From: Dictyophora rubrovolvata
Lineage: Eukaryota; Basidiomycota; Agaricomycetes; Phallales; Phallaceae
Direction: 5' to 3'
DNA: 64,000 nucleotides
Assembly: GCA_029959195.1 (NCBI GenBank)
Contig: CP114121.1
Span: 1,736,001 to 1,800,000 of the forward strand
Below, piece by piece: positions 42,938 through 49,050 of this stretch. The notes beneath the pieces were generated by a model that had not been told where the DNA came from, searched no databases, and saw only the letters and a list, made by a program, of their open reading frames with translations. Position 1 is the first letter of the stretch; every line of letters starts with the position of its first letter. Made by a program: the position numbers and the translations under genes.

Positions 42938-43070
42938 TTCGTTTGCACTTTGTGTGTACTAAAGCTGGGCTAAGCGAATAATTTATTCACTTGTATTTGT
43001 ACAGAACCATAAAAAGATGTTTGTTTAATACATGTAATACTAAGGACTAACACGAGCATCGCTCTTTCTT

Positions 43071-44798
43071 TCAGCGTTGTCCGTCTATATAATCCATTAG
43101 AACAGTGCTCCGTCCGAGCATTTAAGTAGATAGTACTCACAAGCTTTCGTAGCATAATCACCGCCGTGGACGATAAGGTTTGCAGGATCTTGTGGTTTCT
43201 GGTGGAAGAAGTTTTCCAAAATGCTCCTGACGCCAGCGGCGTATCTTGCCTGGGCGTCCAAAGTCGTACCAGAGTAATGGGGTACCATGCCGTTACCACC
43301 ACCGTTGGGGTTACACATATACCTCCAAGGATGGTTCTGTGAGCAAGGTTGAACATTCCAAACATCACCGGCATAGCCTGCAAGAAATGAGAGAATTAGA
43401 CGTTTAGAAAGGAAGAAAAATAAATCGTACCAAGGAGTTTGCCTGATGTTACGGCAGCGCGGACAGCTTCCGCATCACATATAGCACCACGAGCAGTGTT
43501 AACGAGCCATGCACCATCCTTCATGTGAGCAATGGCTTTGGAATCAATCAACCCACGCGTGCCTTCGTGTAGAGGGCAGTTGACGGTGACAACATCACAT
43601 TGACTAAGGAAGTCGTATAGGTCAGTGACACGAGTAGCGCCAACAGCAGCTTCGCGTTCTACAATATTGTCAGTTTAATTCCAGAGAAAGTGAGAATAAT
43701 ATTGCTAAACCTGGAGAGAGAGCAGTGTAGTCGTAGTACAACAATTTTTTGCAGTTGAATGGCCGCATTCTCTGAGTGTATGGTGAGACCAAGCGATACT
43801 TGAGATGTAACATGACATACTTCGAGAACACGATACCCGATACGTCCTGCACCGATAGTTCCAATAACTTTGCCCTCTACATCATATGAATCACGGGCAA
43901 CCGCGGCAACTTGCCAGGTACCACTAGTTATTTGCTAAAAGAAGGCGGAACGATGCATCATGTAAGAAAGAAAAAAATTGCGGTTTGATCGACAAAAAAA
44001 CGTACTCGGTGTCCTACTTCGTAATTGCGAACAAGTAACAAAATAGACATGACAACATGCTCAGCGACGGATACGACGTTGGATCCGGAAACCTAGTTGT
44101 TTACGGTGAGACATGGAGGAAAGAGAGGTGAAAAATGTGAGTGATCTACCTCCGCTACGGTAACGCCCTGTGCGGCAGCAGCATTGAGATCAATGTGGTC
44201 GGAGCCGACACCTGCGGTTACGGCCAGTTTGAGGTTTTTAGCCTGGATTCAATCGTAAGGAATGTGTGTGAGAAAAAAAGATCCTTCGAAAACGTCAAAC
44301 CTTCGCAATCAAGTCCGCAGTGAGGTATGCGGGGTGGAAGGGTGTGGTGATAAGAACGTCGGCCTCGACGATTTCCTTCTGGAAAACACTGTTTGGGCCT
44401 TCTTTGTCGCTGCTAACCTGAACAATGAAAAGTGTGTGAATTGCCCGTTCAAAGTGCAAAAAAATTCAAAGGAGTGCTTACAATGAAGTCATGGCCTAAT
44501 TCCTTGAGCCAACCAGCGAGGCCAAGCTGTGTTGAATCAGCAAGTCGATCAGAATGAATGAAGCAATCAAGCATACACTGTTCTCGGTGGTACCCAACAA
44601 ACGGGGTTCACTGTGGGCGGGTTCACCACCATCGTACAAAATTGCGACGATCCTCATTGCGTTAATAGGTGTAGTTGAGAAGGAAGTAGATTGTTGGAAA
44701 GCATGAGCGGGAAACTGGGAGCCTTTATATGTGTTGGCCTGAGGATACTTCCTCAGCAGTCCTCCGAGACGGCGAGCTGTGAAAATACGCGTGATCAT
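43071..44798 (-). CDS. FDH1: NAD-dependent formate dehydrogenase
   Basis: Oxidises formate to CO2 with NAD+. The start [18 protein letters not shown] is an amphipathic, Arg-rich extension that looks like a mitochondrial presequence; an internal Met ([13 protein letters not shown]) could give a cytosolic form. Later exons show [38 protein letters not shown], the nucleotide-binding [40 protein letters not shown] (catalytic Gln and His) and [13 protein letters not shown]. The last exon gives only YGQR before TGA 43071-43073. About ten exons, roughly 400 residues. Formate may arise from oxalate breakdown, a known trait of wood-decay fungi; that context is inference. Confidence 0.95.
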
Positions 44799-45637
44799 TT
44801 GTTAAGAGTTGGGATACCGGTTTCTAATACACCCGTACCTAATATATGAATTTGGTACTATTTGGATATCTCGAAACAGGGTTATGATCTTGTTCGTATT
44901 GTCACGTGTGATTTATCCCCGACTCGGAATGCGAATGCCAATGCAAGTGAAGCATCATGTGCGCTGAATTCGTTGATTTTTACCTATATCACCCTATCAT
45001 TTTGCAGGGCCCAAGTAATAAGCTGAGACAATAGCAGGGGCGTTCAGAATGGAAGACATGGGATAGCTTTTTTGAAAAAACGAGATTAAGGATACAGAAG
45101 TACCTGAATCGAAGAAGACAGAAAGCGTGAATAAGATAAAAAGAGTTGGCTCGCCGATTCGGAATTCTTCTCAAAAAGAGACGACTAGGATTGGTCCAAA
45201 TGAGTAAACCTGATTCTGAACTCGTAACAAACTTTACCTGCTAGCGTCAAAGGGGTTGGTTCTATAACAAATGCTTACACGAACAATACAACACTCTTAC
45301 AATCACGCCGTGTCGGGTACCTTCACAGCAAGGTTTTGAAATGAATGTATGGGGCTTCACTACTGTCATTGACAGACTCGTCGTTCACATGCAAGCGCAT
45401 CTAATAATCGGCGGTAAAATGATGATCATATTAATCGAAAATGACTTGCCCAAGACTTACCCCATCTCACTTGGATAAACTTCCCATGCATAAGTCTATC
45501 AGCGTTTGTATCCAAAAAAGTGTTTAACAGGCCCCACGACGAGCGTTTATACCCATGTTCGTGTGGATTATCGCCAGTCCGTGTTGGATTGAGGCGATGC
45601 CAATTCTGTAAGATAGGATTCGCGTGAGTGCACTTTA

Positions 45638-45665
45638 GGTAAGCGGCATTATTATGCCGCTTACC
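45638..45665. repeat. Perfect hairpin, 12-bp arms, 4-bp loop
   Basis: The left arm GGTAAGCGGCAT (45638-45649) and the right arm ATGCCGCTTACC (45654-45665) are exact reverse complements around TATT. It ends 11 bp before the first TTAGGG of the adjoining array. It is far from any gene end, so it is not an obvious terminator. Confidence 0.85.
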
Positions 45666-45676
45666 AAGTGTGACAT

Positions 45677-45831
45677 TTAGGGTTTAGGGCGTTTAGAGGT
45701 TAGGGATTAGGGATTAGGGCTTTAGAGGTTAGGGCTTTAGAAATTAGGGTTTTAGAGGTTAGGGCTTTAGGATTTAGGGCTTTAGAAGTTAGGGTTTTAG
45801 AGATTAGGGCTTTAGAGGTTAGGGTTTAGGG
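45677..45831 (+). repeat. Interstitial telomere-like array
   Basis: Thirteen exact TTAGGG hexamers in 155 bp. Some are tandem, but most are separated by CTTTAGAGG-type spacers, giving an imperfect 15-bp unit (TTAGGG-CTTTAGAGG). TTAGGG is the telomere repeat of most basidiomycetes. The G-rich strand is the plus strand. Confidence 0.85.
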
Positions 45832-46170
45832 ATTAGCGGTATATATTTTTTACACAGGTACTTCAAAACTACAGCTACTTGTGACAATTACGTAAGGACG
45901 CACGAATCCTATCTTACAGAGTTGGTATATACTCTGCGATTCGCTCAAGTTTGTTGCCAGGAGCGTGAGTATTCGGAGGTATTCGGCCATTACTAAGCGG
46001 TGACCTCGGCCTGAGTCAGCCGTGGCTTCTGGCTTGTTTGGGATCACGTGGGAATAGCGCAAACGCGTTGCGATCACGTGACGAGGCGACGCATCAGATC
46101 TCAGACCGCGGCCACGCGACCTCCCCACCGCAAACATCTTTTCCTCCCTTACCTCTGCCACTACCTACTA

Positions 46171-49050
46171 ATGACTATCCCAACTGTTTTGAAGACACCC
46201 ACTAACGAACGATTTTCATCAAGAAACTATAAGCAAAAACATCCTCATTACACTGCTACTCCAGCCACTTTAATGCGCAGTCCCAAGCTAACTAAGACGC
46301 CTTCCAAAAGCACTCAACATGAGTCACCGTCGCTCTTTCGTAAACGTATTTTAGTACAATATGGTGGCAGCGAGCAATCTGACAGTGACGACGACGACGA
46401 TGATGATCTGGAGTCGCCGTCGTCTCGTCGTCGACGGTCCCCATTCGTATCACAATGTGCATCTCCTTTTTTTGGAGCCTGGGGAACACGAGAGCCAAAG
46501 GAGTCAACCTCTAACCAACCTATCCTCGATGACGAAGGTTTGTTTCTCGTGTCGACTGCTGTGTCCACCCCAGTGAAAAATCCGACTCATCCTCGCACAC
46601 GAACGCCTTCTCACTCAGCCACCCCCGCTTTTCCTCGTTTAAGTCCACTTCCAATTATTCAAACACACTATCCTCAAACTCCGGCCGAAACCGAATGGCA
46701 TCTTGGAAGGCAAACAGAATCAATGACCAAGCTCAGTTTACGGGACGATCACGGTCCCAAACGTTCCAAACTTCGCAATAAGCTAACATTGAATCAGTTC
46801 AAGTCTTCACCATCACCAACTAGTCGGTACCGTGGTCGGAAACGATCATTCGATGGCAACGAACTTCCCCGGACCATGGGTGATTTGTTCGAGTCCTCCT
46901 CTGAAACACCTATAACTACCACCTTCCGGTTGCCTGGTAACAACCTAACCACACCCTATCTTCCCGTCCCGGCATTTGATTCTCTCATTTCTTCATCCCC
47001 GTGTTGTACTCCAGCATCCCTGAAATTAAATGACCATACGGAGGCTTCGTCGAAACCCGAGATGGAACCAATAGTAATACCCAAGAAGTACAAACCTCGT
47101 GACTCAGGAATAGCCGGTATCGATGACTCTCTAGACATTTTAGACACGGCCGTTGCACGTCGATTGATCAATGATGACTGCATCGACCTTGTTACGCCTA
47201 GTCTCGAACCTTCATTGCATTCAGCCTGGCCCATCAAGCTTACTGATCCCTCAAATGTGGGCGAGTTGGATGACGTTATATTCAAGACTCTGGCTACAGG
47301 AGTGATGGCAAATAAGGACAAGAAGCTGGTGCCAGGAACGCCAGTGAAAAGAACTCAATACGCACATTCTCGTCCTTGGATGACGGCTGCTAAGCCTGCC
47401 GACGCCCCACGAGGCGGAGGAAGTATGTTTTTAGTTTTTTTCTTCTATCTGACAAACACATTCATATTCTTTTAGTTCCTCGCAAGTCATTACCGTTATC
47501 CTTTCCCAGCCTATCGCAGCTTCAAAACTCTCCAGATGCCAGCCCTTCAGAAAGGTCCTTCACTCAAAGGAAGCCTTATGGTGCATTAGGTCAAGGGCGT
47601 CCCAATATGACGATGGGTCGAGTCAGCGGTGCCAAGATAGTTTTGGGTAGGAGAAACAGCAGCGGTGCCTTTTCAACTAGTTCCAGCGAAGGTAGTTTGC
47701 TGGGTACTCCCGCCAAGCTCAGCTTTACAGGTAAGTATTTTATAGTCCACGCTGTATTAAAATCTCATGGGGTCATTCAAGATAAACACTCGCCAGTCAT
47801 TTCTTCTCGTTCGACCAAAGTTTCCCCCAGACCTTCTATCCAGTATCTAAATAAGCTTACCAACGAATTCGAGCGTCCTGGTAAATTTGAAAGAGAATTC
47901 ACGACTCTCGATAATCTCGGTACCGGAGAGTTTGGTAGTGCTCTCAAGGTTAAATGCAAATCTGGAAATGATCAAGATGTTTATGCCATCAAAAAATCCA
48001 AACGGTTGGAAGGGCCTAAACATCGGTTTGTGGTTTAGTCTTATAACATCGCTCTGACCTAACTATCATTAATTTAGACGACGGTTACGTGAAGAAGTTG
48101 ATGTCCTTCGTCACCTCGCAAAGGAGACTCCCGATGGACATCCCAATGTTCTCAAGTACTTAGATAGCTGGGAGCAGGACGATGTACTTTTCATCCAAAC
48201 CGAAATATGTGAATTAGGGGATCTTGCTAAATTCCTAGCTGAATATGGCTCGCACTTTGTGGCATTAGACGAAGCTCGCATATGGAAAATGACTGCGGAA
48301 CTTATTAATGTAAGTCTTCCCATGCGTAGTTTTCTCTTTTAGCTGGATGTGTCGGGCTGATTTTCGGTAAAGGGTTTACATTTCATTCACCGCTCAGGCG
48401 TTGTTCATCTGGATATCAAACCTGCCAATATATTTATCACAAACCAAGGCCGATTTAGGATTGGTGATTTTGGAATGGCGTCTTTATGGCCAAGGAAAGA
48501 CAAAAGTGATGGGTTTGAACGAGAAGGAGACAGAGAATATATGGCGCCTGAGGTCTTGCAGGGAAAGTATGGTCCGGCAGCGGATATGTTTAGGTTGGTT
48601 TATTTATTCATGTTGTATGTGAGAGTAGTCTGACAATTTCTCGGATAGTCTCGGTATGATTCTATTAGAGGCGACCGCCAATATCGTGGTTCCAGATATG
48701 TAAGCATATAATTCCCTGTTCTTCTCTACATCACTGACACATACTCTAGGGGTAACGAGTGGCATATGTTGCGGAATGATAACTTCTCTGCTGTGGATTT
48801 CGCACCGTCTGGATTCCAACCGCGTAGCGCGGAGCTAGTTGACTTGATCACCGGTCTTATGCGCTCCAAGCAGGCATTTCGCCTTACCTCTCAACAAGTG
48901 TATAATCATCCGGTGATTTCTCGCGCAAGGGCGGCGATGTTGGATAAATTGGCTCATGCTATGTCTAACGGCCTGCCTGTTTTCTCTGCAAGCCCTTTGG
49001 GCGGCGAGCCGGAAACATACTTGACGAACGTTCTGTACGTGACGCTATAA
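46171..49050 (+). CDS. WEE1: Wee1-family mitotic inhibitor kinase
   Basis: Protein kinase that restrains mitosis by phosphorylating Cdk1 on its inhibitory Tyr. I start at ATG 46171 (MTIPTVLKTPTNERF). The first ~550 residues are a regulatory region with many Ser/Thr-Pro sites, an acidic run (SDSDDDDDDDLE) and RRRRSP. The kinase domain starts near FEREFTTLDNLGTGEFGSAL (glycine loop), then YAIKKSK (Lys), HPNVLKYLDSWEQDDVLFIQ, VHLDIKPANIF (catalytic loop), IGDFGMASLWP, and EGDREYMAPEVL, where the Wee1-type EGD-x-x-Y replaces the usual threonine region. It ends at TAA 49048-49050. Eight or so exons. Two CACGTG boxes and an ACGCGT lie upstream. Confidence 0.93.

Follow-up and report, generated by a model that had tools for sequence, protein, structure and literature searches.

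The intergenic region shared by a WEE1/MYT1-type kinase gene and a 2-hydroxyacid dehydrogenase gene harbours a 344-bp unit which was very likely moved by a terminal inverted repeat (TIR) mechanism. The unit is very probably a non-autonomous, MITE-like DNA transposon, most likely of the Mutator-like type, and it encloses a hairpin and an array of telomere-like repeats. The mode of transposition is a familiar one, and the cargo is unusual. A small non-autonomous DNA element carrying telomere repeats had been proposed in the initial annotation of this DNA, and the proposal is supported by a second near-identical copy, by two empty sites and by a 9-bp target duplication.

Genomic setting and structure of the element

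The window, i.e. the whole stretch of DNA analysed, comprises 64 kb of contig C5 (C5:1736001-1800000), one of the 11 contigs of a 28.2-Mb genome; positions given without a contig are those of the window. The element lies between two divergent genes (Table 1), with the dehydrogenase gene on its left and the kinase gene on its right, 236 bp upstream of the kinase ATG at 46171. Among solved structures, the kinase is best matched by the membrane-associated Tyr/Thr cdc2-inhibitory kinase, and Wee1-like kinase 2 follows lower in the ranking; these matches and the Pkinase domain agree with the name WEE1 which the gene had previously received. The name FDH1 given to the left neighbour agrees in turn with its 2-hydroxyacid dehydrogenase domain (2-Hacid_dh_C), and the more specific name formate dehydrogenase follows the earlier annotation and motifs in its frames.

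Two 23-bp arms (45600-45622 and 45903-45925) had been described as reverse complements at 22 of 23 positions. They were recovered at those places, and they form the only pair in the 64-kb window when 23-mers at least 22/23 reverse-complementary are sought within 400 bp of each other; one shuffled window contained no such pair at the same threshold and distance. The arms belong to longer, imperfect terminal inverted repeats of 32 bp (27/32), of which they form the inner portion; these repeats lie precisely at the two ends of the copied unit, GAG/CTC, and resemble GAGGCGATRCCAAYYCTGTARGATARGWTTCG. The extent proposed initially, 45600-45925, takes in both arms but stops nine bases short of the copied unit on each side.

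The element is short and devoid of a transposase gene, as is the case for non-autonomous TIR DNA transposons. Ten open frames of at least 30 aa overlap it, and the two which lie wholly inside each translate 41 aa of the array. Of the overlapping frames, the two longest returned no Pfam matches at E 1, and no Rfam matches were obtained across the window at gathering scores.

Table 1. Coordinates of the element, its parts, the neighbouring genes and the related ends found elsewhere in the genome
Feature	Position	Strand	Basis
2-hydroxyacid / formate dehydrogenase-type gene	42970..44796 (approximate)	-	2-Hacid_dh_C domain
Left 9-bp flank, TGTTGGATT	45582..45590	+	expected place of the duplication; 2/9 against 45935-45943
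Whole element, 344 bp, GAGGCG...ATACTC	45591..45934	+	start and end of identity with the C1 copy; two empty sites bear out these boundaries at the C1 copy
Left terminal inverted repeat, 32 bp	45591..45622	+	27/32 against the right repeat; core 45600-45622, 22/23
Hairpin	45630..45671	+	perfect 12-bp stem 45638-45649/45654-45665; loop 45650-45653; additional pairing 45630-45635/45666-45671
Telomere-like minisatellite, about 10 units of 15 bp, consensus TTTAGAGGTTAGGGC	45676..45836	+	periodicity; 80-85% to telomere-type arrays
Right terminal inverted repeat, 32 bp	45903..45934	-	27/32 against the left repeat; core arm 45903-45925
Right 9-bp flank, TGCGATTCG	45935..45943	+	2/9 against 45582-45590
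WEE1/MYT1-type kinase gene	46171..48900 (approximate)	+	long frame with its first ATG at 46171; Pkinase domain 48361-48630
Six related single ends	C2:962568, C9:1578253, C5:302508, C9:398389, C4:1436550, C11:1689238		26-base pattern

A second copy and its target duplication

A second full copy is located on the reverse strand at C1:599558-599901 and is identical to the window copy at 340 of 344 positions (99%), the four differences falling at 45650, 45653, 45729 and 45805. Identity between the copies starts at GAGGCG and stops at ATACTC, and the flanks beyond these points are unrelated. The initial annotation had proposed a search for further copies with shared boundaries, and had named the lack of any other copy in the genome as part of an argument against mobility; the copy on C1, with its equal ends, answers both points in favour of a mobile element.

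When the genome was searched with a 332-bp query, at least 48 matches were obtained, consisting of the window, the C1 copy, the hairpin of each copy on the other strand, and 44 matches to part of the array. The latter, at 80-85% identity, are located at or near contig ends and, in addition, at one place 43 kb inside C3. Queries taken from the left and from the right of the array recovered the two copies only, among the matches listed. Both copies are distant from contig ends. Two full copies of the element appear among the matches listed, rather than the many dispersed copies characteristic of a MITE.

The 9 bp immediately outside the ends of the C1 copy, AGACCGACA and AGACTGACA, match at 8 of 9 positions, a level of agreement reached by 0.025% of the 9-mer pairs from its two 150-bp flanks. 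As the surroundings on C1 are repetitive, empty sites were sought. The flanks proved to belong to a dispersed repeat, and two further copies of this repeat are uninterrupted at the insertion point and so represent empty sites, one at C4:2341275-2341481 and the other on C5 from 462958 on. The two C1 flanks were joined after removing k bases of the right flank, with k ranging from 0 to 15, and were aligned without gaps to each empty site. Agreement was highest at k=9, with 67/75 for C4 and 54/75 for C5, against at most 48 and 49, respectively, for all other values. Since k=9 is the best fit at both sites, the insertion on C1 duplicated 9 bp of target sequence, and the empty sites fix both this duplication and the boundaries of the element there. 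Elements of the hAT type have an 8-bp target duplication, a length which does not fit the data, as k=8 gave 44/75 and 38/75.

At the window copy a clean 9-bp duplication was not found, only 2 of the 9 flanking bases being matched. Target-site duplications, which the initial annotation had suggested looking for, are hence present at the C1 copy but not at the window copy. Read at 7 bp, the window flanks agree at 5/7, a value reached by 1.3% of flank pairs, and a gapped reading, TGTTGGATT against TG--CGATT, is weak. The flanks are single-copy in the genome, which therefore offers no empty site for comparison with the window copy. An older insertion with decayed flanks, or an adjacent deletion, would fit these observations.

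The state of the window flanks bears on the second possibility raised in the initial annotation, a scar of break repair, in which a break would have received telomere repeats and ectopic repair would afterwards have copied the region elsewhere. Such a scar would account for a copy without a clean target duplication, and the insertion of telomere repeats at breaks has been described in mammals (PMC7215372). However, the copied unit ends exactly at the inverted repeats, and the second copy carries an exact 9-bp duplication checked against two empty sites, which speaks against break repair and makes it highly improbable. A simpler variant, the insertion of the array alone by break repair and without transposon ends, was rejected because the array sits inside the unit with inverted ends, and this unit is found whole in two places.

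Hairpin and telomere-like array

The perfect hairpin reported between the arms was confirmed, with a 12-bp stem; the DNA fold of 45625-45680 has an energy of -17.8 kcal/mol (z -8.1), and none of 200 dinucleotide shuffles was as stable. The stem is identical in the two copies, whereas the 4-nt loop reads TATT in one and GATA in the other. Two of the four inter-copy differences thus fall in the loop, with a chance of about 0.0008 for at least two of four in a test chosen post hoc. Given these differences, the loop (45650-45653 in the window) may be prone to mutation.

A strong hairpin would also suit a rolling-circle element of the Helitron type, with the hairpin as its 3' end signal, and rolling-circle elements related to Helitrons can carry minisatellites. 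In this case, however, about 40 bp separate the hairpin from the nearer end. Moreover, Helitrons are not known to make a target duplication or to have long terminal inverted repeats; both are present here, on which grounds the Helitron reading was rejected and is left with next to no probability.

The array spans 161 bp with periods of 15, 30 and 45 (best score 229), and contains TTAGGG 13 times, 4 of these inside TTTAGGG. The TTTAGGG telomere repeat is carried by 10 of the 12 contig ends printed, and is absent, among these ends, from the starts of C3 and C10. Since the repeat at contig ends is TTTAGGG, the array is a degenerate form of it, arranged mainly in 15-bp units, and shares 80-85% identity with telomere-type arrays elsewhere in the genome. 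The TTAGGG-rich array of the initial annotation is accordingly there, but its motif is to be read as a degenerate version of the host telomere repeat, TTTAGGG. The telomere repeat of the basidiomycete Rhizoctonia cerealis is likewise given as TTTAGGG (PMC12144256).

A 21-base array pattern, searched with up to 3 mismatches, matched the genome 15 times, 14 of them in the two copies and one at the C4:2738300-2738800 place described below; this lone match sits at the 3-mismatch limit, and the reversed control gave 3 matches. At C3:43140-43727, 43 kb inside the contig, two telomere arrays point towards one another across a run of N, probably as the result of an assembly join or at a point of fusion.

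Telomere-like arrays at interstitial places are commonly interpreted as remnants of fusion or of break repair. The array described here moved as cargo of a transposon, as indicated by the exact target duplication and by the empty sites, and for this reason an interstitial telomere-like array need not mark an old chromosome end.

Superfamily and proposed mechanism

The genome was searched for a transposase by means of the MULE domain, which matched at three places, on C7, C8 and C9. The matches on C8 and C9 fall in open frames of 262 and 270 aa. The match on C7 (C7:2428480-2428746) is below the family cut-off; 1.6 kb separate it from the contig end, and about 1.4 kb from the telomere array with which that contig terminates. 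The ends of the element are absent from all three MULE-domain loci, as fetched, and the C8 and C9 loci were rejected as donors, the stretches searched around them holding only weak inverted repeats (9-25 bp). As an autonomous partner was not found, membership of the Mutator superfamily is likely rather than certain, and the assignment rests on the length of the duplication and on the ends, not on a transposase.

Merlin and KDZ-type elements also make 9-bp target duplications, and the search for the MULE domain tied no Mutator transposase to the ends of the element; a TIR transposon of another such superfamily is nevertheless unlikely. The ends of maize Mu elements start with GAG, as do those of the element described here. 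Furthermore, a 9-bp duplication suits Mutator-like elements, falling within the 8-11 bp reported for the target duplications of MULEs (PMC6446971), and it suits fungal representatives in particular, since both Hop and Mutyl produce 9-bp duplications (PMC5014426). The points against a Mutator-like MITE as the best explanation include the number of full copies, as two are few for a MITE, the flanks of the window copy, which match at only 2/9, and the absence of the ends from the three MULE-domain loci as fetched.

According to the proposed mechanism, a transposase would have been supplied in trans by a Mutator-like element which is now lost, diverged or unfound. Having bound to both ends, this enzyme would have mobilised the element and integrated it through staggered cuts of 9 bp, while the hairpin and the telomere-like array would travel as passive cargo. 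The array would most likely stem from tandem amplification of a 15-bp unit in an ancestral element, followed by spread through transposition, and it is plausible, on moderate evidence, that it represents passive cargo grown in place.

A functional role at the present site would be compatible with transposition. The element could have been kept as part of a promoter, with its TTAGGG-like boxes binding a host Myb-type telomere-repeat protein, in keeping with its position close upstream of the first ATG of the kinase frame and between divergent genes. Position alone is weak support, because genic and near-genic sites are favoured by Mutator-like elements (PMC6446971), and retention as a promoter part is considered quite improbable. 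It is likewise doubtful, and improbable, that a Mutator-like MITE family spreads interstitial telomere-like arrays with a cargo under selection for the element or the host. If this were true, each insertion would plant TTAGGG-type sites for host telomere proteins together with a potential site of breakage and healing, here beside the mitosis regulator WEE1.

Comparison with known systems

Among Mutator-like elements, the fungal Hop and Mutyl share the 9-bp duplication, and the imperfect 22-bp ends of Mutyl are akin to the imperfect ends observed here (PMC5014426). The Ac-mMITEs of pineapple are short, have 9/10-bp duplications and are thought to derive from Mutator-like elements (PMC8449440). 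In comparison with these three, the present element has only two full copies among the matches listed, no partner transposase found in the MULE-domain search, and a hairpin and a telomere-like array as cargo.

MITEs with an internal minisatellite and a foldback transposon tied to tandem repeats are already known. The former are exemplified by BrickBuilt, which, like the present element, is small and intergenic, with inverted-repeat ends around a tandem array (PMC4596501). BrickBuilt differs in being bacterial and in having a 23-bp unit, and the accessible part of its description makes no mention of a resemblance to telomeres (PMC4596501); common ancestry is not implied. Tetris of Drosophila virilis is, as in the present case, a DNA transposon tied to tandem repeats, but it is of the foldback type and the source of an emerging satellite, and telomere-like repeats are unmentioned in the accessible part of the report (PMC4079207). 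Short interstitial telomeric sequences are internal telomere-like arrays, as is the one described here. Those of primates and rodents are described as insertions made during break repair (PMC7215372), whereas the present array lies inside a transposed unit. No fungal transposon of such a build, with telomere-like or minisatellite cargo, appeared in the literature surveyed by title and opening of the abstract, which is weak evidence, with subscription literature thinly covered.

Related ends and a probable diverged relative

A degenerate 26-base end pattern, with up to 3 mismatches, matched the genome 10 times against none in the reversed control; four of these matches belong to the two full copies and six are new single ends. 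The ends at C2, C9:398389 and C11 share further sequence inward, and have for this reason the appearance of old remnants of a larger family bearing such ends. Within the 0.65-0.7 kb read beyond each of the six, no convincing partner was found (best 19/32), nor a convincing target duplication as judged by eye. A 17-base core pattern, again with up to 3 mismatches, gave 65 matches against 60 in the control, and is uninformative as a count. The frames adjoining the single end on C5 resemble, by eye, a GMC-type oxidoreductase. Inside the C11 relative, a 200-bp stretch (C11:1688990-1689189) is 97% identical between C11 and C1 and is apparently another small mobile element, nested.

The interior of the element is resembled by C4:2738300-2738800, which contains AGTGTGAYA, about one 15-bp unit and a diverged form of the region right of the array. 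Aligned with a shortened element, this place scores 63, whereas 500 shuffles did not exceed 32, in an alignment which includes the telomere-like unit used to find the place. The region right of the array reaches 27 when the expected order is kept, where 1000 shuffles gave 26 at best and 5 of 4000 window segments do equally well; its best match at the C4 place is out of order and scores 29, the highest of 500 shuffles being 28. No counterpart of the part left of the array, including the hairpin, was found at C4:2738300-2738800 (score 14, a value attained by 448 of 500 shuffles). By its sequence, and on moderate evidence, the C4 place is a probable diverged relative, in which the array had not yet grown or has shrunk, and the presence of about one array unit suggests that the array grew inside the element. 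Such a relative, if real, would also suggest that amplification of a short unit within a transposable element can give rise to an array of the telomere-like kind.
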